Origin: a virus
Virus record (IMG/VR): IMGVR_UViG_3300009154_000111
Location: 1 to 39,337 of that record
DNA length: 39,337 nt
Reading direction: 5' to 3' (one strand)
The notes beneath the pieces were generated by a model, which did no database searches, was not told where the DNA came from, and was given only the letters and a program-made list of their open reading frames with translations. The stretch's first letter is position 1; each line of letters starts with the position of its first letter. The translations under genes and the position numbers were made by a program. Of the stretch, positions 1 through 27,734 are shown in pieces.

Positions 1-423
1 AATGTGGTCTTCTAGATCTGGACCCTCAATATTGTCTTCAAGAGACTCTGATGAGAGTTCCCAGTCAAGACGAAGCTTGCGTGTTGTCAAAGAAACCTTT
101 GAGAAAGTTGCAGCTGCGTTTGTGAACTTAGCTGTGTCGTCAGAAGCGTTTACATAATCACGAGGATTATCTTCTGAAGCTACAGTCATAATTCTTTGAC
201 CTACTGAGACGCGATCAATTTCAGTTGTATTGCTACGCATACGGATTGTACGTGAAGCCTTTGCCAAAATAGTTGCATCCCACATGTAATCTAGGAAGCG
301 ATTAGCTTGATCTGGATATAGAAGTCCAGAACCGCTAAGTGTAGAAGTGTCTGTTGACGCTTGTACTCCGCTTGCACCAAGATTAGTTGTATCAATTACT
401 TTTTGTAATAGTTCATTACTCAT
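1..423 (-). CDS. Major capsid protein, N-terminal 141 residues (runs off the left edge)
   Basis: The reading frame opens at ATG 423 and is still open at base 1, so only the first 141 residues are here. It begins MSNELLQKVIDTTNLGA and continues with a segment reading LLYPDQANRFLDYMWDATIL, then a stretch on arginine-rich strands (RMRSNTTEIDRVSVGQRIM). This pattern is typical of the N-arm and E-loop side of HK97-fold phage major capsid proteins. Position supports the call: it lies directly downstream of the portal and protease/scaffold genes, 24 bases after the protease stop. A Shine-Dalgarno-like AAGGTGG precedes the ATG. The HK97 fold is inferred from gene order and general resemblance; the C-terminal P- and A-domains are outside the window. 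Confidence 0.8.
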   Translation of the reverse strand, partial: MSNELLQKVIDTTNLGASGVQASTDTSTLSGSGLLYPDQANRFLDYMWDATILAKASRTIRMRSNTTEIDRVSVGQRIMTVASEDNPRDYVNASDDTAKFTNAAATFSKVSLTTRKLRLDWELSSESLEDNIEGPDLEDHI

Positions 424-447
424 TTTTTATTTCACCACCTTATTTTT

Positions 448-957
448 TTATAGATTTTTAGTTAAGCTATTAACACCGAGGAAGTGTCCTTGCCATATAC
501 TTTTTTGGATTTTTGTTTCCTCTAGTGATCCGTTAAGATCGCTAGACTTCTTTACTGCTGTTGCGGATTCAAATCCGTTCAGCTTATTATCAACATAGTC
601 AATTTTACCGTACATATCAGTAATTGATTTGTTAATCTCTTCATGCTTAGCTTTGATTTCGTCAATCGCCTTTGACATTTCTGCCCTTGTTTCCTCAACA
701 ATGCGATAAACATCTTGAACTGTTGCTGCATGAGTTGCATAATTCTTTTCAATAGAATCATTAAAGAAGGTCTTAAGGTCAGTTACCATCTTTGTGAAAT
801 CAAGTGTATCCTCAACCTCTGAAATAGCAACAGCCTTTTCGATTGCTTCTCCTGCATCAACTGCTGGTGCTTCTGTAACTTCCGCTACTTCTTCAACAGC
901 TGGAGTTTCAACTTCAGTAACTTCGGTAGTTACTTCTGCGTTTGTTTCTTCTGTCAT
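448..957 (-). CDS. Putative nested in-frame scaffold protein (internal start within the protease gene)
   Basis: Inside the protease-scaffold gene, at codon 290, an ATG (955-957) is preceded at 6 nt by a perfect AAGGAGGT. This is one of the best ribosome-binding sites in the window, whereas the full-length gene has none. Translation from here is in frame and gives 169 residues: an acidic N-terminus (MTEETNAEVTTEVTEVETP), a helical coiled-coil-like body and a basic C-terminus, the usual make-up of a capsid scaffold. Known precedent is phage lambda, where scaffold Nu3 is made from an in-frame start inside protease gene C. That the site is used here is inference; the GGA GGT codons also encode Gly-Gly in the long protein. 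Confidence 0.5.
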   Translation of the reverse strand: MTEETNAEVTTEVTEVETPAVEEVAEVTEAPAVDAGEAIEKAVAISEVEDTLDFTKMVTDLKTFFNDSIEKNYATHAATVQDVYRIVEETRAEMSKAIDEIKAKHEEINKSITDMYGKIDYVDNKLNGFESATAVKKSSDLNGSLEETKIQKSIWQGHFLGVNSLTKNL

Positions 958-1824
958 TTCATTACCTCCTTCATTCTTCTTAATAGTCGCCGCATCAACT
1001 GTGATAGGCGAAACTTTTTTTGTTTTATTTTGATCTGGATAAAGATTGATTGCTGAGCTAGTGTCAATTACGCTTGTTGGAGCGGCTGTTTCTAAAGCTG
1101 AGTGTGTTGGGCCTGGAGCATCATCTTTTTTAAAGTAAGAATCAATTACTTTTTCAATTGCTTCAAATTTTTCTGAATCTGCTTGCTCAACCCAACCAAC
1201 ATTTGTCATTGAATCTCCGCATACAGAACAATTTTTTGCTATTTCTACTGATGTTGATGCAACTTCATCTTCTTTACACCAGTAAACATTTTCTAATGTC
1301 ATATTCTTTGCCATTTTTTGAATAGAAAAAAAGTTAGCAAGTGGATTTGCTGGTGAATCTACTAATGATAGTTCATGTAGATCGTAGTTATGAATAACTC
1401 TACGCTCTTCATCCCCGCCATCTGCTTTTTCCATTTTTGCATCTACAATATTTCCGCCAATTGAAAATCCTGAATAAGTTCCATCAAGAACTTTTTCCCA
1501 CGCATCTTGTGCGCCCTTAGAGATGTATGCTGTGACATAAACGCCACTATATTTCTTACCAGAAGCTTTATCAAAAAAAGCGTCTTCTTTAAAATCAATC
1601 ATCTTGCCTACAGCAGATGGACCATGCATTTCACGTATGTTGCCTCTAAAGCTTTCAAATGCTTTTTTGCTTGCTTCAGATGTAACAATATCCCCATGAC
1701 GGTCTACGTTATCTAATGAAGCAAATCCAGAAACAGTTCTCTTCTCCTTGTTAACCTTTGCAATAGGAAAGGATAAGGCCATTGATGATTCACTATTTTG
1801 CCAATACGTTTTTTGTAGTTCCAT
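448..1824 (-). CDS. Prohead protease fused to a scaffold domain (XkdF/HK97-protease-like)
   Basis: 458 residues. Residues about 15-165 form an HK97/XkdF-type capsid maturation protease: an opening VSGFASLDNVDRHGDIV, a candidate catalytic histidine at H67 (REMHGPSAVG), YSGFSIGG near 117, and the family signature HELSLVDSPANP with candidate nucleophile S153. A C..CG element near residues 182-205, continuing to NVGWVEQA, looks like a small metal-binding insertion. Residues about 290-330 are a Glu/Val/Ala-rich acidic linker. Residues 340-430 are helical and coiled-coil-like, as expected for a scaffold (delta) domain. No Shine-Dalgarno precedes ATG 1824; instead an extended -10 lies 11 nt upstream. 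The gene sits between portal and capsid. M15 (ATG 1782) is an alternative start. The scaffold part may also be made separately from an internal start. Confidence 0.85.
   Translation of the reverse strand: MELQKTYWQNSESSMALSFPIAKVNKEKRTVSGFASLDNVDRHGDIVTSEASKKAFESFRGNIREMHGPSAVGKMIDFKEDAFFDKASGKKYSGVYVTAYISKGAQDAWEKVLDGTYSGFSIGGNIVDAKMEKADGGDEERRVIHNYDLHELSLVDSPANPLANFFSIQKMAKNMTLENVYWCKEDEVASTSVEIAKNCSVCGDSMTNVGWVEQADSEKFEAIEKVIDSYFKKDDAPGPTHSALETAAPTSVIDTSSAINLYPDQNKTKKVSPITVDAATIKKNEGGNEMTEETNAEVTTEVTEVETPAVEEVAEVTEAPAVDAGEAIEKAVAISEVEDTLDFTKMVTDLKTFFNDSIEKNYATHAATVQDVYRIVEETRAEMSKAIDEIKAKHEEINKSITDMYGKIDYVDNKLNGFESATAVKKSSDLNGSLEETKIQKSIWQGHFLGVNSLTKNL
964..971 (-). promoter_or_regulatory. 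Internal consensus ribosome binding site (AAGGAGGT)
   Basis: AAGGAGGT on the minus strand, followed by AATGAA and then ATG 957, inside the protease coding sequence. Length and spacing are ideal for initiating the nested scaffold product. Confidence 0.55.
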
Positions 1825-1835
1825 ATATAATTTAA

Positions 1836-1844
1836 ATAATAGCA
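1836..1844 (-). promoter_or_regulatory. Extended -10 promoter of the protease/capsid genes
   Basis: Minus strand TGC-TATTAT, an extended -10 hexamer, ends 11 nt before ATG 1824. A transcript starting about 7 nt downstream would carry a leader of only a few bases. The gene has no Shine-Dalgarno, which fits near-leaderless translation. No convincing -35 is visible. Confidence 0.4.
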
Positions 1845-1878
1845 GTATTTATAATTAACTCATAATTTACAGTAGTTA

Positions 1879-3456
1879 TTATTTTACTTTTCTACCCTCA
1901 CCTTGAGCATTTCTTCCGCCCCCTGATTTGTCTGGTGCATTTAGATTTCTTTGGGTGTCACGTTCTCTATTGCCATCCATTCTTGCATCTGCTGCTTGTT
2001 GTGGCTTTAGCTCCAAAGGATCATCTCCGCCTTCAATTGGGGCTAAGCCCTTTCTTGAACGAACTTCATTTGGAAGAATTACCTTGTCTTTAAGATAAGT
2101 ATCATCAATTCTTGCCATTGTTTCTTCATCTGTAAGAGACAATTCTTCAAATCTAAGCATAAATGCGTCTGTAAACTCAGCTAAAATCTTGTTAAGCTTG
2201 TACTCAAGTTCTTCTTGCATTGGACGACACACTTGCTCTTTAAATGTTTTATCCGCATCCTTAGCGTTTGCCAATGAGACTCCTGCAGGCATACCAATTT
2301 TAGAAATTGGCACACGATGAGCAATAAGGATACGATCTCTATTTTCTATGGCATAGTTATTAAATGAAGAGTCTTGTATTCCCGCCTCAACTGGCTCCAT
2401 CTTAAATTCAACACGACTATTTTCGCCATCCGATGGAAGAGGAATATAGAGCGTTCTGTGGTTACGGCCTTTAAGCCCAGTCTGAAAAAACTCAAGAAGC
2501 TTACGCTCTGACTCTGCACTTAACTTGGCACCCTTTACAGTAATAATATAGCGTGGCACTGCTTTGTTTTCAAAATAATCTAAATTAAATCTTTGTGCAA
2601 ACTCATCACCAGCTACAGCATTTTTTGCAGATAAAATATCTGGTACACCGTAGTATGTATTTGATGGTGTAAACTTTTTAAAATGAATTACTTCGTTTGG
2701 CTGTGGGTCTGTTCCAATTTGATCTGGAGTTTCTGTATCTCCAAAATTTCTAAAGAATGTATAACGATTATATACAACCTGCACAAAGCCATCACGGTGA
2801 CGACGAATACGCATAGTTGTTGTTGGGATATGTCCCAGATAGCCAATTTTTCCTGTAGCTGTACGACCAACTTCAAGATAAGCGTTACCTGTTGACTCTA
2901 AATCTGTATATACTTTTTTCATATTTTCTGTAAAAGAATCATCTGAATTCATTGATTCAAGAAAATCACGAAGCTCAACTTTTGCTGCTTCAATTTTTGT
3001 GCGTAGCTTGTCAAGCTTCTTTGGATCATCAATAACATCTTGTACTTTTTGAGTTACTTTAAATGTTTCTTCAAATTTATACCCCAGCCCAATTACGTTT
3101 GCAACTTTGGCATTAACTGCTGAATGGTGATAGGGGGACACATCATAAAGTTGTGATAAATAAAGCATGTTAAATGGAGGCTGAACAATCTGAAATAAAG
3201 AATAGCCTGTAAGATCAAGCGGATCAAGCTTTTTAGATTTTGCATCATCTATGCCAGAAAAAGACTTTTCAAGCCTATTAGCTTGACGACGGATATTTGG
3301 ATTAAGCCCGTCCATCTTTTTAATATCATCCCAAGATTTAGAAAACGGATCTTCAAATGCTTCTGATGTAGAGCCACCAAATCCAAAGTCTACGTTTGAT
3401 CTAACTTGTACTTCGTTTTCTTCGTTATCGTCCATGATTGTTACGTTGTGTTCCAT
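1879..3456 (-). CDS. Phage portal protein (PBSX/HK97-like family)
   Basis: 525 residues, normal for a portal. It forms the dodecameric DNA entry ring at the capsid vertex. Features matching PBSX-type portals are: the early PPFNMLYLSQLYDVSPYHHS segment (residues about 94-112, the region reading 'PP...L..L...S..H..AV..K'); the EVIHFKKFTPSNTYYGVP motif near residue 255; the following DILSAKNAVAGDEFAQRFN and YFENKAVPRYIITVKG; and the late helical HRVPISKIGMP region with a long acidic/Lys C-terminal tail (ELKPQQAADARMDGNRERD). The start codon overlaps the upstream stop as TAATG, so translation is probably coupled to the 112-aa gene. Protease and capsid follow downstream. Confidence 0.9.
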   Translation of the reverse strand: MEHNVTIMDDNEENEVQVRSNVDFGFGGSTSEAFEDPFSKSWDDIKKMDGLNPNIRRQANRLEKSFSGIDDAKSKKLDPLDLTGYSLFQIVQPPFNMLYLSQLYDVSPYHHSAVNAKVANVIGLGYKFEETFKVTQKVQDVIDDPKKLDKLRTKIEAAKVELRDFLESMNSDDSFTENMKKVYTDLESTGNAYLEVGRTATGKIGYLGHIPTTTMRIRRHRDGFVQVVYNRYTFFRNFGDTETPDQIGTDPQPNEVIHFKKFTPSNTYYGVPDILSAKNAVAGDEFAQRFNLDYFENKAVPRYIITVKGAKLSAESERKLLEFFQTGLKGRNHRTLYIPLPSDGENSRVEFKMEPVEAGIQDSSFNNYAIENRDRILIAHRVPISKIGMPAGVSLANAKDADKTFKEQVCRPMQEELEYKLNKILAEFTDAFMLRFEELSLTDEETMARIDDTYLKDKVILPNEVRSRKGLAPIEGGDDPLELKPQQAADARMDGNRERDTQRNLNAPDKSGGGRNAQGEGRKVK

Positions 3457-3794
3457 TATCCTAGCTTCATCTCCCGCATTTCTTTAACATATTCCATCAT
3501 TGCAGGTGTGTCCTGTGTATCTGGAATTAAGCCTATATTTGATCTTGTTTTTTGTTCTTCAAGTTCATCATCTGTTACTGTTCTATGACCCGCAAAAAAG
3601 ATAGGCTTTCCTTCTGAAAGACCATGGTATTTAGCAACTTCTTTAATCTTTTTAATCTGCTTAATGTCACCTTTAAGTGACGGGACACAAAGATATCCGC
3701 CTTCATCGTCTATAACTAATGATTCATCGGGCATTTGCCACATATATAATCCCCAGTTGACTTCATCTACGGGGGTAATCTTCATTTTTCCCAT
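3456..3794 (-). CDS. Conserved-looking small protein upstream of the portal, function unknown
   Basis: 112 residues, acidic and soluble, with no membrane segment or signal peptide. It opens MGKMKITPVDEVNWGLYMWQ, then LVIDDEGGYLCVPSLKGD, a lysine-rich stretch (QIKKIKEVAKYHGL) and a C-terminal charged helix (MMEYVKEMREMKLG). It has no recognisable domain. Its stop overlaps the portal ATG by one base (TAATG), and position suggests a head-associated accessory protein. It has no Shine-Dalgarno; an extended -10 (TGGTATTAT) ends exactly 6 nt before the ATG, which would give a leaderless mRNA starting at the A of ATG. Met4 is an alternative start. Confidence 0.7.
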   Translation of the reverse strand: MGKMKITPVDEVNWGLYMWQMPDESLVIDDEGGYLCVPSLKGDIKQIKKIKEVAKYHGLSEGKPIFFAGHRTVTDDELEEQKTRSNIGLIPDTQDTPAMMEYVKEMREMKLG

Positions 3795-3800
3795 GTTGTT

Positions 3801-3809
3801 ATAATACCA
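3801..3809 (-). promoter_or_regulatory. Leaderless extended -10 promoter for the portal operon
   Basis: Minus strand TGG-TATTAT ends 6 nt before ATG 3794, so a normal transcription start would fall on the start codon. The downstream gene has no ribosome-binding site. This would be the promoter of the small gene-portal pair. Confidence 0.5.
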
Positions 3810-3854
3810 TTTTGTTTAGTTAAAGCCTAATAAATGTACTGATGACTGCCATTT

Positions 3855-5822
3855 TTAATATGTATGATCATGTGAAATGACAGCAAGACCGCCATTTAAG
3901 CTTGTAGGAGTTGATCCAATGTACTCAAGAATAGTGCCCAGCGTAGTTGTAGTATCATATACAATTGCAGTTTGTGTAGCAAGATATGAAAGGTATCTCG
4001 TTTGAACCTCTGTTGCACTTAAAGCGGTTGGGAACATGGTTATATATCCATACATTGCTTGCGGAGATGCTGATAAACCATCTGTGCTTCCATTAATGTA
4101 TATTGGATTAGTTGTTGATGTATTATAAACAAGTGTTATAAAATAAGTTGCCCCAGGCACTATAGCATATGAGTTTGTTGATTGTTGTACACCATTGATA
4201 TATAGGGTTGCATTAGCCCCTAGGTTGCTTGATAAGAGGTTTGAGCTACTGGATATAGATATATCTACACCCGATATAGTTGCAGTGTCTAAAACGGCTG
4301 CTGAGCTTGCGCTAGTTCCTGTGTATTTAAACCAAAATTCTATAGTTTTATAAGCAGTACTATTGGTTGATGTAATTACAGCTGATCCTGGATATCCCGT
4401 CCCAGGTGTTTGATTTACAAAATTAATGCCTAAATTCCTGTGTCTTGAAAGCAAATTATCTGTGTGCTCTTTAATCATATAGGTTGATCCAGTTGTAGGG
4501 GTCATAACAAATCCGCCTGAATCTGCTGCTATATTTAAAGTTTTATAAATTTTAATTGAAAGATTATCTAGTCTTGGCTGGGTGCTTAAAGAAGTATCTG
4601 GTGAATACATTTGTACTTTAATTAATAAACTTGCACTTGCATTGTTAAGCGAATTTTGTAAAAAGAAAGGAACTAGTTCATTGCTTAATACCTCATACCA
4701 TGTTGTTCCATTATCATAAGATGAATAAACCTTTATGCTTTTATTCCCGCCTGTTGTTACATTTGAAGTTGCAGTATCCCAATAAATACTTATTCCAACA
4801 AAGCTTATGGTGTTGATTAATGGAAAGTTATAGTACCAAGTACCAGTTAATGTGCTGGCTGTAGTAGTTTGTTTAATCGTTATTCCGCCGTTATCTGGAA
4901 CAAGATCTACATATGAGCCTTGATCATAATCTTTTGAAGAACTAAATCTTCTTTCCATATGTATCATTTCACTTCTTGATTTAATATCAAAATGATAAGC
5001 ATTACCTTGTTGTGCAAAATGGTCTGGTCCAGAATCTGTGTTTGCCCAATATATATGATTATCAATTTCTTTTTTAGAAAGCTTATATGTGTAAAAAGCA
5101 AGATCATTTATTGTAAATGATTTACCTGTTGGGGCTGGCCCTAACTTATACTTTACATAAGTATTTGTAGTCATTGTAAATTTATCATTTTTTGGTATCA
5201 TAACAGATTCATCTGATACGCCATCTGCCATAATTTCAATATTTTTTTCATTATAAGAAAGATATATGTGAACTTTTTTATCCCATGAATACATACGCTT
5301 TTTAGTTGTATATGAGCTTGTGGCAGTATTTACAGTAAAATAAATATAATCATTTTGAGCATATGCTTCAGCAATTACGGTTGTATCATTTACAACGCTA
5401 AATAGATTTGTTTTAGCATCTGGTGCTTCTGAAAATAATGCCCAGAATTCTATTCCAAATATCCCGCCTTCATAATTTTTATCAAAAAAACTATATGTAT
5501 CAAAAATACTTATAATTGAATTATCATTAAGCTTGCAACCATTAATTGTTGAATCGCTAAAAAGACGGGAGTTAAGGGTTAAAATATCTAAGAAAGTTGG
5601 TAATTGAGATCCAAAACCAACAGCAGCATGATTACCACTTACAGATATATCTTCAAAAGTAATAGATCCAGCTTCATATGCATATGTAGCTTCAGAATTT
5701 AACCATTGTTGATATGTTGCGTATTGCTCAAGTACAGTAGCATAGGTGCGGTAGGTAAAGGTACCTGTTAAAGGCTAATAGGCTACAGGATCATCTCTAA
5801 GTACAGCTTCTTTATATGACAT
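3855..5822 (-). CDS. LamG/concanavalin-like tail protein, interrupted by an in-frame amber codon
   Basis: One frame runs unbroken from ATG 5822 to TAA 3855 (655 codons) except for a TAG at codon 16. It reads MSYKEAVLRDDPVAY-stop-PLTGTFTYRTY. Many phage LamG-like proteins open with D.PVAYW.L, so the stop replaces the expected Trp (TGG to TAG). After it, 639 sense codons continue with coherent protein. A first beta-sandwich includes IFGIEFWALFSEAP, IYLSYNEKNIEIMADGV and the closing INDLAFYTYKLSKKEIDNH. A second copy has YKTIEFWFKYTG, LYINGVQQS and YGYITMFPTALSATEVQTRY. The first Met after the stop is at 5294; it has no ribosome-binding site and lies mid-domain. ATG 5822 has a TATAAT 7 nt upstream. 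The gene is either newly broken, a strain variant, or read through. The likely role is a tail or virion-surface carbohydrate binder. Confidence 0.75.
5775..5777 (-). other. In-frame TAG at codon 16, at the expected conserved Trp
   Basis: Minus-strand codons read GCC TAT TAG CCT TTA. A single G-to-A change would convert TGG to TAG. TAG is an ordinary terminator elsewhere in this window (genes ending at 8133, 16436, 26832 and 39134), so global reassignment of TAG is unlikely. Confidence 0.8.
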
Positions 5823-5829
5823 ATAATCT

Positions 5830-5860
5830 ATTATACCTTTTTAATAAATTAAAGCGTTAA
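5830..5860 (-). promoter_or_regulatory. Leaderless promoter of the LamG-like gene
   Basis: Minus strand TTAACG (5855-5860), a 19-nt spacer and a perfect TATAAT (5830-5835), 7 nt before ATG 5822. Transcription would begin at or next to the start codon. This independently supports 5822 as the true start, and so supports the TAG being internal to the gene. Confidence 0.5.
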
Positions 5861-5889
5861 ATTCTTAGGTATGTCATGGTTAATTAAGT

Positions 5890-6459
5890 TTAATACTTGT
5901 CTATTAGCAGGTTCGCGTTGACAACTGACCTTACAGAGTGTTTTTGAGGAGGGGTTATGGCGTGAAAATGCCTACCGTCCACAACAAACGCCGCGCCTCT
6001 TTTAGGGGATATTGAGTGCATAATCGTAAGAGGGGGCTTAATAATCTGACCAGTAAACGTATCCTCATATAAAACTGTATCCCCATCACTATCGTGCAGG
6101 TAATACAAAAATATTAAATGCGGGTCGTCCCTGTCTACGTGTGGGTATAGCGACCCAGTCTTAAAAGTATGAGGGGTTACGTTAAGTTTTACCCTACCAA
6201 GGGAGGTATAAGCTATGCCGTGTTTTATACAGAACTTATCAATTAGCCACTTAAAGTCTTTGTGTATAGGTGAACCTTCAGGTATTCCAGCTGAAAAATA
6301 AGGTACATCTTTTTTACGTGTATTTACAACACCAGGGTGGTCTACGTCGTTACTTTGAGTTCCTTTAAAATAGCACCAAGGTGTATCTACAGAATAGAAA
6401 AGGTCGTCTACAAAACGCATTTCGTCTTCGGTAAGGAAGTCATCATCGTATATAAACAT
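5890..6459 (-). CDS. 2OG-Fe(II) oxygenase (prolyl-4-hydroxylase-like fold)
   Basis: 189 residues. It carries the iron-binding triad of 2-oxoglutarate dioxygenases: HxD at H107/D109 (SLYPHVDRDDPH), followed by LIFLYYLHDSDGDTVLYED; a distal histidine in GRHFHAITPP (H164 or H166); and an arginine for 2OG binding near R177 (SVRSVVNANL). Such enzymes hydroxylate or otherwise oxidise proteins, sugars or small molecules; the substrate here is unknown. It overlaps the upstream 231-aa gene as TAATG, is last of the enzyme island, and is one of four oxygenases in it. Its sequence differs most from the other three, which share a G.RY....W ending that this one lacks. Confidence 0.85.
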   Translation of the reverse strand: MFIYDDDFLTEDEMRFVDDLFYSVDTPWCYFKGTQSNDVDHPGVVNTRKKDVPYFSAGIPEGSPIHKDFKWLIDKFCIKHGIAYTSLGRVKLNVTPHTFKTGSLYPHVDRDDPHLIFLYYLHDSDGDTVLYEDTFTGQIIKPPLTIMHSISPKRGAAFVVDGRHFHAITPPQKHSVRSVVNANLLIDKY

Positions 6460-7154
6460 TATTTGTAAACCTTACGTTCCCAGTAAAGCTTTTTATACAC
6501 CCCACTAGGCTCAGTTCTAAAAACATCCCCAACGTGTTGTTTAGCGTGTGCCTCTTGGTCCGTAAGCATACTTATATTGCTTTTCCAAAGCTCTCTTTTA
6601 AAAGGTATTATTTGAACGTAGGGGGTACCTTTTGGTATTACACCTTTAAAACTTCTTTTTAAGAATAAAGGAACGTTTCCAGGCGTATCCATTTTATCGT
6701 TTTCAATAATACCGTTAGTTACAACCCAAGGTAAATCAAACCTATTTAATGGGCTTACGTATAAAGCGCTATATCCTTCAGGCAAGCTAACCCCCCACTG
6801 AGGCAGCACCGCTATATGATGAGGGTAGCAGTCATCTGGGGCGCTAAATCCTTTCATTTCTGGGCGAACCTCAATAAAAGTTTTATATTTTTCATCAATT
6901 GATACGTGAATATCATCGCCATCCACTTCTATTAAAATATCAGTAGGTGTTACAAAACAATAACCCAGTGACATAGCGTCAAAGAACGGCATACAAGCTT
7001 TAAACGTTGGTTTATTTACGTCGCCCTCTAAATAACGTTCCGCTTCTCTGTACCAGTGGGGTAGTGAATAGAGTGCGGTAATAGGGTTATTTGGGTCGTC
7101 TTGGAGCTTATTATCAAATGAATAAAAAGTAATCTCTTTATCTGTAGGTTTCAC
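6459..7154 (-). CDS. Unknown protein, possibly DUF6065-like
   Basis: About 231 residues from GTG 7154, which has AGAGG 9 nt upstream. An ATG at 7193 would add 13 residues but lacks a ribosome-binding site and overlaps the upstream gene by 56 bases. Visible features are KEITFYSFDNKL at the N-terminus, a beta-rich middle (DILIEVDGDDIHVSIDEKY), LPWVVTNGIIENDK, then FKGVIPKGTPYVQIIPFKRELW. The last element resembles the 'P.GTP..Q.IPFKRE.W' region I associate with DUF6065 proteins of phages and cyanobacteria, but this is from memory. No catalytic motif is evident. It is coupled to the downstream oxygenase by TAATG, so it probably works in the same pathway. Confidence 0.65.
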   Translation of the reverse strand: MKPTDKEITFYSFDNKLQDDPNNPITALYSLPHWYREAERYLEGDVNKPTFKACMPFFDAMSLGYCFVTPTDILIEVDGDDIHVSIDEKYKTFIEVRPEMKGFSAPDDCYPHHIAVLPQWGVSLPEGYSALYVSPLNRFDLPWVVTNGIIENDKMDTPGNVPLFLKRSFKGVIPKGTPYVQIIPFKRELWKSNISMLTDQEAHAKQHVGDVFRTEPSGVYKKLYWERKVYK

Positions 7155-7506
7155 CGAATATGTCCTCTGGGTAGCTGTAATCAACAGAATCATAATAGCG
7201 TGTTAGCTTTGGGCTATTTTCTTGAATATACTGCAACACGTCCATAGTGTTATCAAATTTTAACGATAACTGTGTTAAATGTTCCGCAGCCTCATTATGA
7301 AAAGACTTAGCCTCCTCTTCGGAAGAATGAAGATTATAAAACAATATTTTAAGGTGTGAAATTTTTCCTTCATGCTCTGAAGGAAGAAGAGCAGTTTCAT
7401 ATTTATTGTTTATTAATTTAATAGTATTTAATCTAAAGTAAATACGGTCGTCAAACTTCAATAAAGTTTTTAATTCCCAATGATTTATAGTCGGATCATA
7501 TGCCAT
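7138..7506 (-). CDS. Unknown acidic 122-aa protein in the oxygenase operon
   Basis: Soluble, without signal peptide or membrane segment. It starts MAYDPTINHWELKTLLKFDD and has a helical centre (SSEEEAKSFHNEAAEHLTQL), ending YSYPEDIFGETYR. It is not recognised. It begins 3 bases after the stop of the upstream oxygenase and overlaps the start of the next gene, so it is a member of the enzyme-island operon. Similar short acidic proteins beside phage oxygenases may be partners, but that is conjecture. Confidence 0.65.
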   Translation of the reverse strand: MAYDPTINHWELKTLLKFDDRIYFRLNTIKLINNKYETALLPSEHEGKISHLKILFYNLHSSEEEAKSFHNEAAEHLTQLSLKFDNTMDVLQYIQENSPKLTRYYDSVDYSYPEDIFGETYR

Positions 7507-7509
7507 TTT

Positions 7510-8130
7510 TTATACCTCTTGTTCTAACTTATCCTCATGGTTTGCGTATTCCGTCCAAAAACTAGAAATAGTATAGCGGGTGCCGTTCAATACCCTTTTA
7601 ACTCCATGAGAGTGGTGCACATCCCCTGGAAAAAAAGCAAGCATGCCCGGTTTAACGGGGATAGAAATGCCGTGTTGGGGAAAATGAATATCTCCCCCCT
7701 CAAAATCATCGTTTAAATATAAAACGCAACCCACCTGTCGCCAGTTATACACATGCGGCTCTAACCCATAGTTTTCAAAGTCTGAGTGGGCTGGTTGAAC
7801 GTATCCGTGGGGCCACTTAATTAAATTTAAACTGTCGGCGTATACAACATCAAGGTTATAAACTTTCATTATCTCGTGTTTAATCCTTGTTCTTAAGTTA
7901 ACTAATTTATTAAAAATGTCAATGTCATAAGGTGTCCCTAACCCCTTTCCAATGGATTTAAGATTTGCAGCGCCCATAAATCTATTAGACCACTGGCTGT
8001 AGGGGTCACCCGTAGAGTCCCCCATATCCCAAAGACCATTAGTATCTAAATACTTTTGATAGTTTATAAATAAATCAATTTCTTCTTTTTTTATAAAATC
8101 GTGGATAACTATTATGTCCTCTTTAGCCAT
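7510..8130 (-). CDS. 2OG-Fe(II) oxygenase
   Basis: 206 residues. All cofactor ligands are visible: H115/D117 (VQPAHSDFENYG), distal H175 (VHHSHGVKRV) and R185 (NGTRYTISSFW), on a double-stranded beta-helix pattern (VGCVLYLNDDFEGGDIHFP). This is the classical P4H-type set, close in layout to the next gene upstream, suggesting an old duplication. The gene starts 2 nt after the upstream oxygenase's TAG. The substrate is unknown. An N-terminal helix (KKEEIDLFINYQKYL) is typical of phage members. Confidence 0.88.
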   Translation of the reverse strand: MAKEDIIVIHDFIKKEEIDLFINYQKYLDTNGLWDMGDSTGDPYSQWSNRFMGAANLKSIGKGLGTPYDIDIFNKLVNLRTRIKHEIMKVYNLDVVYADSLNLIKWPHGYVQPAHSDFENYGLEPHVYNWRQVGCVLYLNDDFEGGDIHFPQHGISIPVKPGMLAFFPGDVHHSHGVKRVLNGTRYTISSFWTEYANHEDKLEQEV

Positions 8131-8132
8131 AT

Positions 8133-8699
8133 CTATTTCCTATCTAAAAATGATTGAGCCGCGGATACCGAGTAATCGTAAGACCAAAACGAAGTTATAG
8201 CATACCTAACACCATTAAATATCTCAGTTACCCCGTGCATATACTCAAAAGTGGAGGGAAACATTACTAATAAATTTGGTTTTGGGGTAACAGTTGTATT
8301 TTGATTTGGAAACCATAGGTCGCCCCCAGAAAACTCCCCACCCAAATAAATTAACGCAGAGAATTTTCTATGTGAGGTTCCATTGTCTTCCCCGTTATTT
8401 CCCGTAGAATCAGAGTGCGGGTTGCCAGTCTGCCCTCTATAAGTCCTAGCAAATTGAAGGAGTTCCGCATACAGAGGAACCTCTATATTAAAAGTGTTAG
8501 TTATTTCAGCTGACATTTTAATAGAAGTATCTTTTAAAAGATTAAGAAGCTCGGTTGACTTAACTGAATGCGGGTTTATACATCTACTATCCCACAAAGG
8601 GGTGTGAGGAAGCGGCTCCCAGTCCTCTGTAGTTAAAACATAATTAGAAAGGGTATTAAAGTCATCTTCTAAAAGAAAGTTTTCTTTTTGTATAATCAT
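8133..8699 (-). CDS. 2OG-Fe(II) oxygenase
   Basis: 188 residues with H95/D97 (TGNPHSDSTG), a core FSALIYLGGEFSGGDLWFP, distal H155 (YMHGVTEIFNG) and R165 (GVRYAITSFW). It is paralogous in layout to the neighbouring 206-aa oxygenase. Its ATG overlaps the DUF2061 gene's TGA (ATGA), and it ends in TAG only 2 nt before the next start, so this is a tight operon. The stop matters because it shows TAG working as a normal terminator in this phage. Confidence 0.88.
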   Translation of the reverse strand: MIIQKENFLLEDDFNTLSNYVLTTEDWEPLPHTPLWDSRCINPHSVKSTELLNLLKDTSIKMSAEITNTFNIEVPLYAELLQFARTYRGQTGNPHSDSTGNNGEDNGTSHRKFSALIYLGGEFSGGDLWFPNQNTTVTPKPNLLVMFPSTFEYMHGVTEIFNGVRYAITSFWSYDYSVSAAQSFLDRK

Positions 8700-8902
8700 T
8701 GCTCACGACCCCATTTAACTTTATTCCAAACGCGTTCGTGGACATAGTAAAGAAAAACTTTAGTAAATATCTCCATGCCCGAAATAGCTAAAGCCAGCTT
8801 TGCTTTTCCAGTGATAACATAAGACAAGATAAACGTGTCTACAGTACCCATAAGTCTCCAAGTAACAGCTTTGGTAAAAGAACGTGAATGCGTGACGTTC
8901 AT
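8696..8902 (-). CDS. DUF2061 small membrane protein
   Basis: 68 residues. It matches the DUF2061 pattern: SFTKAVTWRLMGTVDTFILS, then TGKAKLALAISGMEIFTKV and LYYVHERVWNKVKWG, with two short hydrophobic segments likely to form membrane helices. DUF2061 proteins are known to occur beside or fused to CysC-type APS kinases, and the APS-kinase-like gene is immediately upstream here. The function is unknown; a role in membrane association of sulfate-activation enzymes is speculation. A GGGG-rich ribosome-binding site precedes ATG 8902. Confidence 0.85.
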   Translation of the reverse strand: MNVTHSRSFTKAVTWRLMGTVDTFILSYVITGKAKLALAISGMEIFTKVFLYYVHERVWNKVKWGREQ

Positions 8903-8935
8903 TGCCCCGCCCCCAAAGCCATAAAACCAAGTAGC

Positions 8936-9688
8936 TTAGATACCCATTTCGCTACGCTTTTGAGTAGCGCTGATAGCTTCAATTTCTTCTCCTAACTTAA
9001 TTTGTTCAATCTTATATCCAACGTCTCTACCATACACGATGTTGGTAATATTAGGCATTTTAACAACCATAGCCCCAGCCATAGCCGGGTCAGATGAGAT
9101 GTATTTCTTTACCTCATCAAATCCTAGGGGGTCTTTAGGGCTTGTACCCTGAGTGTTGCGCACACCCAACATTACCTGGGGGGTGCGGGTTTTAGCTTCA
9201 TGATACAGAGCATGGTGCCCTTCATGCCAAGGTTGGTAACGCCCAAGCATAAGTGTTGTTGGCGCTTTCCAGTCATGTAGGTTAGATGTAAGTATGATGT
9301 TGTTTACGTGCGTTTCAGAATCAAAGGTTTCAAACTTATAATCAAAAGCTGTTGGATCTTCCCACATCTTATTTGTGTCCTCAAAGCGCCCTTCTTTAAG
9401 AGTATCCATCCATACAAGAATATTTGCTTTGCCAAAAACATTCCTTGTGGTTTGTGTCGGGCAGATGAAATCAACTACTACATCAAACCCTTGACCTGAA
9501 AGCATCTCAGCCATTCCTCCCATACGGCGGGCATGCTCTACACGGTCTTCCGATGAGAACCCAAGGTCAGAGTTAATAGTAGAGCGTACGTAGTCCGCAT
9601 TAATATGTATGGCGTTAATACGGCTGGCTAGCTCAGCAGCTAACGTAGTTTTGCCTGAACCCGGAAGCCCAATAATTTGAATAATCAT
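8936..9688 (-). CDS. APS-kinase-like P-loop kinase fused to an HxGH nucleotidyltransferase
   Basis: 250 residues from ATG 9688, which overlaps the upstream TGA (ATGA); a start at 9700 would add four residues. Residues 1-125 form a CysC-like domain: Walker A GLPGSGKTT (7-15), then NADYVRSTINSDLGFSSEDR (30-49), the characteristic APS kinase segment, and FICPTQTTRN (74-83) corresponding to FISP.R..R. Residues 145-250 form a nucleotidyltransferase with LGRYQPWHEGHHAL (HxGH at 155-158) and a closing ISATQKR (239-245), as in NadM-type adenylyltransferases. The kinase would convert APS to PAPS. The second domain could adenylylate or cytidylylate an unknown substrate. A NAD-salvage (NadR-like) role is an alternative, though the kinase signature favours APS. 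Confidence 0.82.
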   Translation of the reverse strand: MIIQIIGLPGSGKTTLAAELASRINAIHINADYVRSTINSDLGFSSEDRVEHARRMGGMAEMLSGQGFDVVVDFICPTQTTRNVFGKANILVWMDTLKEGRFEDTNKMWEDPTAFDYKFETFDSETHVNNIILTSNLHDWKAPTTLMLGRYQPWHEGHHALYHEAKTRTPQVMLGVRNTQGTSPKDPLGFDEVKKYISSDPAMAGAMVVKMPNITNIVYGRDVGYKIEQIKLGEEIEAISATQKRSEMGI

Positions 9689-10305
9689 TTGTCCCACCAC
9701 CCTACAACGGCGTACCTTGTTCCATACGTCACAGGATGAACGGTATGCGTATATACATAATTTGATGGGAATACAATCATTTGATTTGCTTTAGGTTTGA
9801 TTTTTAATTTAAAGTTATTAAACTCAATCTCTCCACCCTCGTAGTCATCATTAAGATAAAAACTCATTGAAACTGTTCTTGGAAACATTGTGCAGTCATC
9901 AAAATGATTTATAAAATGTCCATCTTTTCCATATTTAAGAATCTGCCACCCTTCTGAAATATTCCATTCATGCGCATTAAATCTAGTTCTATAGTCGTTT
10001 ATAGCGCCATACAAAGATTCGTTTAAAAAATTGTGAGCTGAAAGGGCACCTAAAGAAGGTGAACCAGGTTCTTTTGGTGTTGCAGTATCAAACTTTGGCA
10101 GAGATATAACGCGACAATCTCTAATAGATGAGAGTTTTGGTTTAACTTCATTAGATTCATTTCGCGGTTCACCAGCGCTACCGTACATCCATGATAACTC
10201 GTTAATCTCCACCAAAGACTCCACGTCAACAATAAATGTGGATGGATCTTCCATTACATTTAAATAACTTACAATACCTGGTGCAAGCTCTTCACACTCA
10301 AACAT
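9685..10305 (-). CDS. 2OG-Fe(II) oxygenase
   Basis: 206 residues from ATG 10305 (MFECEELAPGIVSYLNV); an earlier start at 10341 would add 12 residues lying inside the upstream gene. Ligands are H134/D136 (FINHFDDCTMFPRT), H187 (YVYTHTVHPV) and R197 (YGTRYAVVGWW), with core FYLNDDYEGGEIEF. The motif order matches P4H-type enzymes that act on peptides or sugars. It overlaps the zinc-ribbon gene upstream and the APS-kinase-like gene downstream (ATGA), so all three are translationally coupled. Confidence 0.88.
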   Translation of the reverse strand: MFECEELAPGIVSYLNVMEDPSTFIVDVESLVEINELSWMYGSAGEPRNESNEVKPKLSSIRDCRVISLPKFDTATPKEPGSPSLGALSAHNFLNESLYGAINDYRTRFNAHEWNISEGWQILKYGKDGHFINHFDDCTMFPRTVSMSFYLNDDYEGGEIEFNNFKLKIKPKANQMIVFPSNYVYTHTVHPVTYGTRYAVVGWWDK

Positions 10306-10546
10306 TATCAATACCCCATTTTCCAATTGGACATTCCGCATCTTTTAGCTTTGTTTTTGCTTTCATTACGCATCCACATTTTTTGCATTGAGTAGTTAAT
10401 TTTATAAACTCTGGGCACTGTTTGCAAATTGAATACCTTGTGTCTACAACTTCTTCTGAAGACCATTCTATATTGGGGCTTATCAAATCCCAAGGTCGGG
10501 TGTCGCCTATTAATTTTTTATATCTATTTAGTAAAGAATCCGACAT
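10298..10546 (-). CDS. Six-cysteine zinc-ribbon-like small protein
   Basis: 82 residues. Cysteines lie at 41, 44, 54, 57, 59 and 72: YSICKQCPEF, TQCKKCGCVMKAK and DAECPIGKW. The paired CxxC knuckles indicate a small zinc-binding module. Proteins with this C..CP / C..CGC / CP.GKW layout are, to my knowledge, common in aquatic phages next to oxygenases and glycan enzymes, but have no established function. AAAAGGAG precedes ATG 10546. It sits between the sulfotransferase and an oxygenase. Confidence 0.75.
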   Translation of the reverse strand: MSDSLLNRYKKLIGDTRPWDLISPNIEWSSEEVVDTRYSICKQCPEFIKLTTQCKKCGCVMKAKTKLKDAECPIGKWGIDNV

Positions 10547-10549
10547 TTA

Positions 10550-11338
10550 TTACTCCTTTTTTTTATTATATACGTGCTCGTAAAGTTCAAAATCTATGGA
10601 ATTAAGTTCTAAAAATCTTTGAATGTCCTCTTCCGAAAGCATACTCTTTAACACCGTGGTTGTGTACTCTACTTCATTATACGTAACTAATGAGGTATTA
10701 ATCATTTTATTGTTTGTATATTCACCTATAGTAATGCTGTAATTGTCTAAAAACCATTTTTTAATATCTTGTAAAAATTGCTCATGATTTTCTATTGTAT
10801 TTACAATGGCAAATTTATCTAAATACGCTTTAGCCATTTCTAATGTAAACTCTTGTTCTTGGAGACCCCAAGCTTGACTTCTTATTTTATATTCTGTGGA
10901 GCTATTTGAAATTGAATCTTTAAAGATATTTGTTGCGGGGGAGTTGCATATAAATTGTGCTTGAATGTTTCTGTGCCTAATATAACCCAAGTCATCAAAA
11001 AAATAATACTTTAGTTTATCTATAAATTCAGGGATAGCTGAATAAACTTCTGATTTAGAAATAACTTTGTTATAAATAAATAAAAAGTTACTAATTGCGC
11101 GGTCAAGAGGGTCTCTTAACAAACATGCAACATCTAGGTTATCTGTTTTATCAATTGGGTATCTTCCCAAATGCCCTTGAATAAATACGTATTCATTAAA
11201 GTTATCGTTATGTGGGGGTGGGGTAGGGGGATAATGCGTGATTGAGTTTTCAACGAAAGCAGCATGCAACTGTACACTTACCGATGTACCACCAGTTTTT
11301 GGAATGTGTAAAAAGTACAGTCTTTTATTTATATCCAT
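10550..11338 (-). CDS. PAPS-dependent sulfotransferase
   Basis: 262 residues. The 5'-phosphosulfate-binding loop is clear at residues 8-19 (YFLHIPKTGGTS), and the 3'-phosphate-binding segment RDPLDRAISNF at 75-85, as in the sulfotransferase-2 family that sulfates carbohydrates. The C-terminal third is helical with no membrane anchor, unlike Golgi enzymes. AAAGGAG precedes ATG 11338. Together with the APS-kinase-like gene two genes downstream, it implies local synthesis and use of PAPS. The acceptor (host glycan, virion protein or small molecule) cannot be read from sequence. The gene follows the FN3 fibre gene, so virion modification is a reasonable guess. Confidence 0.85.
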   Translation of the reverse strand: MDINKRLYFLHIPKTGGTSVSVQLHAAFVENSITHYPPTPPPHNDNFNEYVFIQGHLGRYPIDKTDNLDVACLLRDPLDRAISNFLFIYNKVISKSEVYSAIPEFIDKLKYYFFDDLGYIRHRNIQAQFICNSPATNIFKDSISNSSTEYKIRSQAWGLQEQEFTLEMAKAYLDKFAIVNTIENHEQFLQDIKKWFLDNYSITIGEYTNNKMINTSLVTYNEVEYTTTVLKSMLSEEDIQRFLELNSIDFELYEHVYNKKKE

Positions 11339-11362
11339 TTCAGCTCCTTTTTAGCAATAATA

Positions 11363-12163
11363 TCACGTAGATGTGTAGCCAACAAATACACCGCAGTTTG
11401 TATATACGCACACGTTTGAACCACAAGGTCTGTAATAGAAGTTACCATTAAATACGCAAGGTGGATTGCTATAAACAGGTGGATTGTAATAAACAGGTGG
11501 ATTGTAATAAACAGGTGGGTTGTAGTACGGGTTGTAATAAACAGGTGGATTGTAGTAAGGGGCTACCGGTGACGTGCTATTTGAAGGCTGACTATTTACA
11601 GAATCGCCGTTAGCGTTAGTCGCTTTAACAACAAAAGTGTAGGCTGTTCCGTTTGAAAGAGACGAAATGGTAATTGGGCTTGTCCCTGTCCCAGTAAAGC
11701 TTCCGGGGGTTGAAGTAGCCGTAAAAGTAGTAATTGCTTTTCCGCCAGTAGCGCCAGCAGTGTAAGTAAGGCTTGCTGAGGAATCTCCGGCAGAAGCTGT
11801 TCCGATAGTAGGGGCTTCAGGCACAGTTGTAACTGTTACTTGAGGGCTTGATGCGGAGATAGGGCTAGTTCCAATAGAGTTTGTTGCAACCGCTGTAAAT
11901 GTGGGAGATGAAGAAGAGCTTAATCCAGTTACAGATATAGGTGAACCCGATCCAATTTTTGACTGGCCTGTGCTGGCAGTTACTGTATAACTGGTTATGG
12001 GCAGACCCCCATCGTAAGCAGGGGGGGTGAATGCTACAGATACAGTGCCATTATTAAAAGCAAGCCCGTTTGCTCCGGCGGCACCAGAATCTGTTCCCAC
12101 CCCAATAATGGGAGCATTTGGGGCTAAACGCCTAGATGAATGAAATCCTCCGACTATAGGCAT
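11363..12163 (-). CDS. Fibronectin-III-like tail protein with C-terminal PPVYYN repeats
   Basis: 266 residues. Two FN3/Ig-like domains span about 16-113 (APNAPIIGVG ... ITSYTVTAS ... ATNSIGTSPISASSP) and 114-200 (VPEAPTIGTA ... ITTFTATST ... NGTAYTFVVKATNANG). They are followed by a low-complexity tract (202-235) built on PPVYYN, then a Cys-rich end (CVFNGNFYYRPCGSNVCVYTNC, written here in two parts: CVFNGNFYYRPCGSN and VCVYTNC). FN3 domains are common on phage tail surfaces. The Pro-Tyr repeats and four cysteines are unusual in virion proteins and may crosslink or bind surfaces. Its ATG lies just after the stop of the collagen-like fibre gene. Confidence 0.75.
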   Translation of the reverse strand: MPIVGGFHSSRRLAPNAPIIGVGTDSGAAGANGLAFNNGTVSVAFTPPAYDGGLPITSYTVTASTGQSKIGSGSPISVTGLSSSSSPTFTAVATNSIGTSPISASSPQVTVTTVPEAPTIGTASAGDSSASLTYTAGATGGKAITTFTATSTPGSFTGTGTSPITISSLSNGTAYTFVVKATNANGDSVNSQPSNSTSPVAPYYNPPVYYNPYYNPPVYYNPPVYYNPPVYSNPPCVFNGNFYYRPCGSNVCVYTNCGVFVGYTST

Positions 12164-12164
12164 G

Positions 12165-13640
12165 TTAAGCGCTCAAATCCCCAACAAGTAACCAGTTATT
12201 AGTTCCCAGACAAATAAGCGTTGCTGAAGAATAAGCGGTACGTAACTTAAGGCCTGGGGTTGCGTTTAAGGTAACACCCGTAGCTGTTACAGAAACACCC
12301 GTTGTTAAAGCTAACAAGTTAATTTGTGTTCCAGCAGGGGCGGTACTTAATGCTGTGGTGACGTTAAATGCAAAAGCACCGTTCATTTGAATCATAGATT
12401 CATAGTCTGTTGTTGCTAAAGTGTACGCCGCTGTTTTAGCTGTAGTGTTAACTGTAAACTTAGCTTGCGCCGTTACCCATGATGTTGCTGAACCATCAGT
12501 GTATAGATACTTTCCAGCATTACCGGTTTGTGTTGGTAACCCTAAACCTTGAATTCCCTGAACCCCTTGAAGCCCTTGTGTGCCCTGCACACCTTGTGTG
12601 CCTTGTGAACCTTGAAGACCTTGTGTGCCCTGCACACCTTGTGTGCCTTGAATGCCTTGCACACCCTGAGATTGATTAAATCCACCACCTTGAAGCCCTT
12701 GCAAACCCTGAATACCTTGTGTACCTTGCAAACTTTGTGTACCCTGTATGCCTTGCGAACCTTGAATTCCTTGAGCACCCGTACCTGCAGCAATAGTAAA
12801 ATTAATTGAATCTGTTCCTATGCGAATAGAACCATCTGAATTAGAACCATTTCCATATTGAACCCAGGTTGTGTTTGCATATGTTGTTCCATTAAGAACA
12901 AAAACATAATCTCCATTTGTAACTTCCCCCACATTACTATTATCATAATCTGTTGCACGAGTAAGTACCCAATAAACAGAGGTAGTTCCTAATGTAGTTA
13001 CTTTATATATACCATTTTCAATTGCATTTGAACGATTTTTAACAAGAACACGATCATTAAGTAGCCATGTATATCCATCTGTGCTTGCAGTTCCAAAAAC
13101 ATTGCTTGTAATTTTTGCACCAACACCAGTGCCATTTTCTCCATCTGCAGTTCCTGCCGTATAAGTAGCATTAACAAAATCTATTACTGTTGCGGTTTTA
13201 ACTGCACCGTGAGCATTTTGAGAACCAGCTTGGCCCATAATTCCTTGAATACCCTGTACGCCTTGTATGCCTTGCGTACCTAGTAAGCCTTGTATTCCTT
13301 GAAGCCCTTGTGTTCCTTGCACACCTTGTGTGCCTTGCATTCCTTGAACACCTTGTATGCCTTGGGTGCCTTGTATTCCTTGAAGCCCTTGTGTTCCTTG
13401 CACACCTTGTGTGCCTTGCATTCCTTGAACACCTTGTATGCCTTGGGTGCCTTGTCTACCTTGCAAACCTTGAACACCTTGTGTTCCTTGTAGACCTTGA
13501 ATACCTTGAATACCTTGAGGACCTGGATGAACATCAACATATGCAGCGATATCAACAGCTAATGCCTGAATATCTCTAGGTACATTAGGAGTATCAGTTA
13601 AAGCGGGGTATCTAAAATTATGATCTGTGGTAGGTGCCAT
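12165..13640 (-). CDS. Collagen-like tail-fibre protein
   Basis: 491 residues. After an N-terminal head with [20 protein letters not shown] (8-27), a Gly-X-Y tract runs from 40 to 139, almost always with Gln at Y ([10 protein letters not shown]). A globular insert follows at 140-285, with [30 protein letters not shown] and [20 protein letters not shown], a domain seen in many phage fibres. A second Gly-X-Gln tract spans 288-366, and a beta-rich C-terminal knob contains [20 protein letters not shown]. Collagen-like trimers probably form the shaft. The tracts are tandem DNA repeats, including a perfect 81-bp duplication, so length variation between strains is expected. A TGGTATACT element lies 9 nt before the ATG. 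Confidence 0.85.
12543..12779 (-). repeat. Gly-X-Gln collagen-like coding repeats, second tract
   Basis: Tandem 9-nt units encoding Gly-X-Gln, interrupted once by GGGFNQSQ. The tract belongs to the collagen-like fibre gene. Confidence 0.85.
13224..13523 (-). repeat. Gly-X-Gln collagen-like coding repeats, first tract
   Basis: About 33 consecutive Gly-X-Y triplets with Gln at almost every Y position. Proline is nearly absent (one PQG at the start). Confidence 0.85.
13288..13449 (-). repeat. Perfect 81-bp tandem duplication inside the collagen-like tract
   Basis: Two adjacent copies (13288-13368 and 13369-13449) are identical base for base, adding exactly 27 residues and keeping frame. This is recent slippage or unequal recombination. 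Confidence 0.85.
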
Positions 13641-15565: not shown

Positions 15566-16426
15566 TTAGTAGTATAAATATACAACGCCGTTACCGCCTG
15601 AGCCAGCAGTTCCACCAGTAGAAGCGCCGCCACCACCACCACCACCTAAGCCGCCTTTGCCACCATCATTTAGAACACCAGTTGATATTCCTGCTGGATA
15701 ACCAGCATTGAATCCTGCGCCTGTATATCCTGCTCCACCACCGCCACCGCCAAAAGATGTTCCAGTTCCAGTTGAACCAGCACCACCTGAATAGAAATCA
15801 CCAGTACCGCCAGCACCGCCTGTGCTTGTACCTGCTGTTCCTGCTGCACCACCGCCACCAGTAATTAGACCACGACCTCCAGCAGATGCAGTTACTGTTC
15901 CAGTTATTGTTGCTGAGCCACCGCCACCGCCAGTATTTACTCCAGCATTACCAGCAGTAGCAGAACCGCCAGCAGCGGCATAACCTGTTGAAGTTGTAGA
16001 AGGCGCGCCTGTGTAAGAACTTGTTGATGTGGTAGTTTGATTAGGCGTTGTTGCCCCACCTCCTGCACCGCCAGAAATTTGAGATGAACCTGCACCTGAA
16101 CCGCCACCCGAAAAAACCATTCCATAGATTGATGAACCGCCGCTTGCACCACCACCAGCAGTTGAAGTTCCTATGCCACCAGCGCCTACTGTTACTGAGT
16201 TTGAAATATAAGTCCAACCAGCAGAGTAACCACCCGCACCGCCGCCACCACCACCGCCAGTTGTTTGTGTGCTTCCTGCACCACCACCGCCGATGACGAT
16301 TGCATAGACTCGGTTGATACCAGCAGGAATATCAGTTACAGAAGAAGATGTTGTGTATGTGCGTTGCAGTTTGAGTCCGTAAGGAGTATCAGTAAATTGT
16401 GAATTGCTATAAATAGTTGCGCTCAT
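15566..16426 (-). CDS. Glycine-rich tail adhesin-like protein (group A)
   Basis: 286 residues. The N-terminus SATIYSNSQFTDTPYGLKLQ is followed by a beta-strand motif (IPAGINRVYAIVIGGGGAG), then roughly 220 residues rich in GGGGGAGG runs, and ends GGNGVVYLYY. Conserved landmarks are GGYSAGWTYISNSVTVGAGG and SSIYGMVFSGGGSG. Long Gly runs can pack as polyglycine-II helices, as known for the T-even-type gp38 adhesin tip. This makes a tail-tip or decorating role plausible but unproven. It starts 9 nt after a TAG that ends its paralogue, in the same frame. Confidence 0.75.
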   Translation of the reverse strand: MSATIYSNSQFTDTPYGLKLQRTYTTSSSVTDIPAGINRVYAIVIGGGGAGSTQTTGGGGGGGAGGYSAGWTYISNSVTVGAGGIGTSTAGGGASGGSSIYGMVFSGGGSGAGSSQISGGAGGGATTPNQTTTSTSSYTGAPSTTSTGYAAAGGSATAGNAGVNTGGGGGSATITGTVTASAGGRGLITGGGGAAGTAGTSTGGAGGTGDFYSGGAGSTGTGTSFGGGGGGAGYTGAGFNAGYPAGISTGVLNDGGKGGLGGGGGGGASTGGTAGSGGNGVVYLYY

Positions 16427-16435
16427 AGTTGCTCC

Positions 16436-17365
16436 CTAGTAGAAAAGGTAAAGTATTCCTGCGCCGCCTATTGAAGAAGTACCGCCAGTTGGTGCAGCAC
16501 CCCCACCACCCCCACCGATTCCACCTGCGCCACCAGCATTTCCTGATGCAGCAGTTCCGTTACCTGCAACTCCAGCACCACCACCACCTGCGCCAGCAGT
16601 TCCAGTACCAGTTGAACCATTACCACCTGTATAAGTTGTTGATGGGTTCAGAATTGAAATTCCAGTTCCACCATTACCGCCTGTTCTGCTTCCAGTAGTT
16701 GTACCCGCGTGACCACCGCCACCACCAGCAAAACCTGAACCGCCGTTACCAGCAGTAGAAGCAGTAGATACTCCGCTTATTCCAGCAGTTCCACCACCAC
16801 CACCTGAAATTCCATTACCGCCGTTACCAGCAGTAGAAGAACCACCTGCGCCGTATGTGCCATACCCATAGCCACCATTAGCACCAAAACCTCCATTGAT
16901 AGATGTTGCAGTTCCACCAATCCCATTTGCCATACCCCAATAATTGCAAGCATAGTTATTCAAATAACCACCATAAGAAGATATACCACCACCAGATGAA
17001 GGCTGACCACCTACTGCAATTATATTTCCATAGCGTGTATAACCACCGACACCACCAGTAACACCAAAACCAACTATGCAAGATGATGTTGCAATAGTCC
17101 AGCCCCACGAAATCTGTCCAGCACAACCTGAACTTCCATTAGCACCAGCAGATCCACCGCCACCAGCGCCAACTGCGATGGCATAAACAAATGTAATTCC
17201 AGCAGGGATTGTTACTGATGTATCGCCAGCATTTTTAGTTTGTTGTAGTTTTAAGCCGTAGGGCAAAATAAAATGCGTATTAGATAAAGGTGTTGAGGCA
17301 GGAGAAGATGGGTGCCAATCACTGACTTGTGAACTTACTTCGCCTCTAGGTAAATATTGATGCAT
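16436..17365 (-). CDS. Glycine-rich tail adhesin-like protein (group B)
   Basis: 309 residues. It opens MHQYLPRGEVSSQVSDWHPS, a group B N-terminus shared with the genes ending at 26832 and 27735. It then has THFILPYGLKLQQTK and VTIPAGITFVYAIAVGAGGG, a Gly-rich body with blocks such as GGFGANGGYGYG, and the aromatic end LYLFY. It terminates in TAG. The downstream paralogue begins three codons later in the same reading frame, so readthrough would fuse the two proteins (about 600 residues). The most likely role is a tail adhesin. Confidence 0.75.
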   Translation of the reverse strand: MHQYLPRGEVSSQVSDWHPSSPASTPLSNTHFILPYGLKLQQTKNAGDTSVTIPAGITFVYAIAVGAGGGGSAGANGSSGCAGQISWGWTIATSSCIVGFGVTGGVGGYTRYGNIIAVGGQPSSGGGISSYGGYLNNYACNYWGMANGIGGTATSINGGFGANGGYGYGTYGAGGSSTAGNGGNGISGGGGGTAGISGVSTASTAGNGGSGFAGGGGGHAGTTTGSRTGGNGGTGISILNPSTTYTGGNGSTGTGTAGAGGGGAGVAGNGTAASGNAGGAGGIGGGGGGAAPTGGTSSIGGAGILYLFY

Positions 17366-25886: not shown

Positions 25887-25895
25887 TATTACTCC

Positions 25896-26822: not shown

Positions 26823-26831
26823 AATATTTTC

Positions 26832-27728: not shown

Positions 27729-27734
27729 AATATG

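Follow-up and report, generated by a model that had tools for sequence, protein, structure and literature searches.

A long frame on the minus strand of an uncultured phage is broken almost at its start by an amber codon, and this locus raises the question of whether the stop is genuine and, if so, whether the protein beyond it is still made. The DNA analyzed, termed the window, is a linear virus record of 39,337 bp from a freshwater-type bacteriophage. The frame opens with ATG at 5822-5820 and runs through MSYKEAVLRDDPVAY to TAG at 5777-5775 (DDPVAY-stop-PLTG), after which 639 sense codons lead to a TAA terminator. Minus-strand reading thus bears out an earlier sequence-only reading, which had described a frame from ATG 5822 intact except for TAG at codon 16, with 639 sense codons after it. 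Its further statement that no restart precedes Met177 (5294) holds for ATG, GTG and TTG alike, none of which occurs in frame between the TAG and that codon. The features of the locus are collected in Table 1.

Table 1. Positions of the interrupted gene, its parts and its neighbors within the window.
Feature	Position	Strand	Basis or remark
LamG-fold gene, likely of the virion; 655-codon frame interrupted at codon 16 only	3855..5822	(-)	ORF reading; Pfam; full-length homologs L003, L018, L019, L013 at 72-82% identity
TAG at codon 16; TGG (Trp) in relatives	5775..5777	(-)	
15-codon open stretch ahead of TAG (MSYKEAVLRDDPVAY)	5778..5822	(-)	
Longest ATG-initiated frame past TAG, from Met177; 479 aa, beginning within the LamG domain	3855..5294	(-)	
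TATAAT box, probable -10 element of a leaderless transcript, 7 nt ahead of ATG	5830..5835	(-)	Common to several relatives
Small conserved gene between LamG gene and portal	3456..3794	(-)	Order kept in Streptomyces phages Francob and Beuffert
Portal protein gene; syntenic neighbor used for finding relatives	1879..3456	(-)	PHROG 12, E 4.8e-58

The identity of the gene is given by its domain content and its surroundings. Residues 120-253 match Pfam Laminin_G_3 (PF13385) with 37.3 bits against a cut-off of 27.6, which upholds the first half of the earlier label "LamG-like tail gene"; the tail or receptor-binding role would be conjectural, and a more fitting description is a virion gene of LamG fold located just upstream of the portal. 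The structure model, whose confidence is moderate (mean pLDDT 69), consists mostly of beta structure; it places a helix at residues 3-9 and a strand at 14-16, the last residue of which is Trp16. A fold search returned generic lectin-like jelly rolls only, at a TM of 0.25 that carries no functional meaning, and no solved structures related by sequence and no DNA-level match to isolated phages were found.

The window portal shares 55-57% identity with its counterparts in Streptomyces phages, among them Beuffert, a member of the Stanwilliamsviridae. In these phages, genes annotated as hypothetical (Francob gp22 and Beuffert gp21) occupy the same place, followed in the same order by a small gene, the portal, the capsid maturation protease and the major capsid protein. 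Their products have a Laminin_G_3 match and Trp at position 16, and they are homologous to the window protein along almost their whole length (hhalign 99% for Francob gp22), although they are 561-573 aa long, uninterrupted and about 23% identical to it. By homology and by synteny upstream of the portal, the window gene belongs with the gp22-type genes of Stanwilliamsviridae-like Streptomyces phages, and its product is likely a LamG-fold protein that would be displayed on the virion surface.

Several features of the surroundings and of the family can be noted here. In Streptomyces phages, the glycosyltransferase, RNR, endolysin, LamG and portal genes follow in close succession. In the window, about 28 kb of collagen-like, glycine-rich and small enzyme-like genes (5823-33700) separate RNR from the LamG gene. 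Long collagen-like QGxQGxQG repeats at 12165-13640, 24127-25020 and 28634-33232 (-) mark three probable fiber proteins, and an opposite-strand gene at 36767-37459 (+) may encode a secreted transglycosylase-type lysin, which its sequence resembles. The homologs in L030, L054, L058 and L099 carry extra modules of about 200 to more than 1,000 residues between the equivalents of residues 317 and 327, which split the LamG protein into N-terminal and C-terminal modules.

The codon replaced by the stop is strongly conserved. The proteins of L018 (82% identical), L003 (80%), L019 and L013 (both 72%) are uninterrupted, 655 residues long and encoded with TGG at codon 16. Across 25 homologous starts, which include these four and most of which adjoin portal genes, codon 16 specifies Trp in 24 and Tyr in one (L038). 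The syntenic genes of Francob and Beuffert, which start MTYIYYVLKEGPIGLW and MTYIYYALREGPIGLW, respectively, likewise have Trp16. Residues 1-16, which align with the starts of these Streptomyces phage proteins, hold the invariant or near-invariant family positions M1, S2, Y3, L8, D10, P12 and W16. The earlier claim of an amber codon at a conserved Trp is therefore sound, and the comparison with related genomes that it called for gives TGG at codon 16 with one Tyr exception. Comparison of the homologous sequences confirms Trp16 as the ancestral residue, which a single transition (G to A) converts from TGG to TAG.

The viral collection was also scanned with a pattern for the gene start that permitted TAA, TAG, TGA or TGG at codon 16. 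Among the listed matches there were at least 97 distinct sequences with TGG, one with TAG (the present one) and none with TAA or TGA, so a recurrent amber codon at this site was rejected. In about 560 homologous gene copies no internal stops were found elsewhere, other flagged stops falling at alignment ends. Because the Trp replaced is conserved in 24 of 25 homologs and the TAG is the sole in-frame stop in 11,828 codons, its position is beyond chance.

The age of the stop can be judged from the selection acting on the remainder of the frame. In a codon model of five close homologs, the window branch has a dN/dS of 0.088 and the remaining branches 0.080, and selection has therefore acted on the gene until very recently. 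Fixing the window branch at 0.15 worsens the fit by 3.3 lnL units, and neutrality worsens it by 33, which suggests that any constraint-free part of the branch is at most roughly 5%. Pseudogene decay was rejected, as dN/dS is not raised. A branch constrained like those of the relatives means either that the stop is very recent or that the protein is still made. The gene thus shows what is expected of a recent nonsense allele, namely an ancestral sense codon in relatives, an intact remainder and constraint that has not yet relaxed.

A scan of viral contigs shows that the TAG is present twice. Contig 3300010885_025881 aligns with window positions 392-12332, differs there at 9 of 11,941 bp and has the identical TAG; the LamG gene itself contains a single difference, Lys193 in one and Arg in the other. 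An error private to one assembly is therefore unlikely, and the TAG is probably, on this sequence evidence, a real strain allele. The two contigs may nevertheless share reads, if one assembly co-assembles the sample of the other, and an error common to both could have arisen if, for example, both were built on the same low-coverage reads. Such an origin would fit a codon one base away from that of all near relatives, and L012, L013 and L100 carry similar assembly numbers, which may mean that the samples come from one study. Moreover, two 3300010885 contigs both stop matching the window at exactly 392, within the probable major capsid gene; this break is perhaps an assembly branch point and would point to mixed strains in that assembly. 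However, the two assemblies agree on the TAG yet differ at 9 other positions, and hence are not the same consensus, and the rest of the window contains no further in-frame stop. An error shared by the two contigs is accordingly considered unlikely.

If the stop is real, the protein could still be made by readthrough, in which a suppressor tRNA of the phage or host, or natural misreading, would fill codon 16 and yield full-length protein at a reduced or regulated level. The intact frame past the TAG, constrained as in relatives, is consistent with this, since a low dN/dS is also expected if readthrough is functional, as is the fact that the stop is UAG and occurs at one position only. Related large phages also bear tRNA clusters, and that of the 92 kb contig G009 includes a tRNA-Trp(CCA), located at L214 1655-1728. 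Against this, no relative has a stop at codon 16. The RNA downstream of the TAG is no more structured than shuffled sequences (fold z -0.30), and a readthrough RNA element was rejected on this ground. There are no tRNA genes within the 39,337 bp of the window, while 14 of the 22 records searched, the window among them, have tRNA genes. In the regions examined around the tRNAs of related records the anticodons are ordinary and none is CUA; these records include G005, a 77.8 kb contig with an RNR 95% identical to that of the window. The search for a CUA-anticodon tRNA that had been proposed earlier was therefore negative for the window and for the tRNA regions of related contigs. The window is a linear genome fragment, so a suppressor tRNA may lie elsewhere in the genome or in the host; a search by exact pattern for a contig continuing it rightward found none.

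The use of TAG across the window bears on the same question. Its 34 genes end in TAA (25), TGA (6) or TAG (3), which falls below the earlier count of at least four other genes ending normally in TAG, and readthrough of two of the three TAG-ended genes would fuse neighboring genes. Across 32 genes comprising 11,828 codons, a single TAG occurs in frame and neither TAA nor TGA does, and reassignment of the stop codon was rejected for this reason. Tandem glycine-rich adhesin-like genes at 15566-17365 and 25053-28634 (-) lie one stop plus 6 or 9 nt apart. All four of their junctions keep the same frame, so that any readthrough would fuse the genes, and TAG stands at two of them (16436 and 26832). 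This spacing may simply follow from a Shine-Dalgarno site that overlaps the stop. As a sign of readthrough the in-frame adhesin junctions carry no weight, because there are only five of them and duplication relates them to one another.

Known recoding systems offer some likeness to this arrangement. In phages using genetic code 15, TAG is reassigned to glutamine genome-wide (PMC11210395, PMC9523058); re-annotation raises their median gene length by about 70%, and about half of them carry a CUA suppressor tRNA (PMC11210395). These phages share with the window an in-frame TAG inside a gene of the structural module, but here there is one such codon in 11,828 and TAG is a normal stop that ends 3 of the 34 genes, unlike in a TAG-recoded genome. 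In programmed readthrough of the Q-beta A1 type, in phage structural genes, the stop divides two products that both function. Both cases have in common a virion gene in which a long open frame follows a stop, whereas the present stop is confined to one strain lineage and leaves a peptide of 15 residues, being neither conserved at its site nor followed by a stimulatory RNA structure.

The earlier suggestion of a readthrough switch thus finds no support in recurrence of the stop, in the tRNAs of related records or in an RNA element, and TAG otherwise ends genes normally. A possible route would lead only through a tRNA in the missing part of the genome or in the host, or through natural leakiness, and functional readthrough appears improbable. 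It is very doubtful that the host of this strain has an amber suppressor, or that the missing genome part does (for example, one descended from a tRNA-Trp(CCA) such as G009 encodes), such that synthesis of the surface protein would hinge on that tRNA and its display would be limited to permissive hosts. Least probable of all is a start downstream of the TAG that yields a shorter functional protein. The frame past the TAG would allow it, but with no in-frame ATG, GTG or TTG before codon 177, which falls in the LamG domain, such a start was rejected, and it would discard the conserved residues 1-16, whose counterparts open the Streptomyces phage proteins.

Among the four explanations offered by the earlier reading, a fresh nonsense mutation and strain polymorphism are both favored, while assembly error is unlikely given the second contig and suppressor readthrough is unsupported. 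The TAG is most likely a TGG-to-TAG nonsense allele of recent origin, real at strain level, through which an accessory virion protein with a LamG fold is lost. The change from G to A would have occurred in one uncultured phage related to the Stanwilliamsviridae, of which at least two near-identical strains would carry it. Translation of a probably leaderless message would then yield a peptide of 15 residues and end. No start is available before Met177, which falls inside the LamG domain; a restart there would break the domain, for which reason the allele is expected to be null. That a virion gene should have a null allele as its consensus in both assemblies comes as a slight surprise.

The organization of the locus shows how such an allele might be borne. 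The TATAAT noted earlier does lie 7 nt before ATG 5822, and the leaderless-type start proposed with it is supported by several relatives that keep TATAAT 6-8 nt before the same ATG. Several homologs share this TATAAT-to-ATG spacing; in others the start has a Shine-Dalgarno sequence. Similarity to L003, L019 and L013 sets in at 5840-5844, 18-22 nt ahead of the ATG and just in front of the TATAAT, and the genes further upstream differ. This pattern suggests a mobile cassette in which the gene travels together with its promoter. In addition, many relatives that have the portal carry unrelated genes in the LamG slot, and no LamG homolog was found in the 108 kb contig G010, the 92 kb G009 and several other large contigs, all of which are fragments. 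The LamG gene is an optional module at this locus. The nonsense allele is therefore probably tolerated, and may be kept in the population on these terms.

Unless peptides or a suppressor tRNA should reveal readthrough, the finding matters little further. It would offer a momentary view of gene loss among phages in nature, with a very recent nonsense allele in an accessory virion gene that is replaced in relatives.
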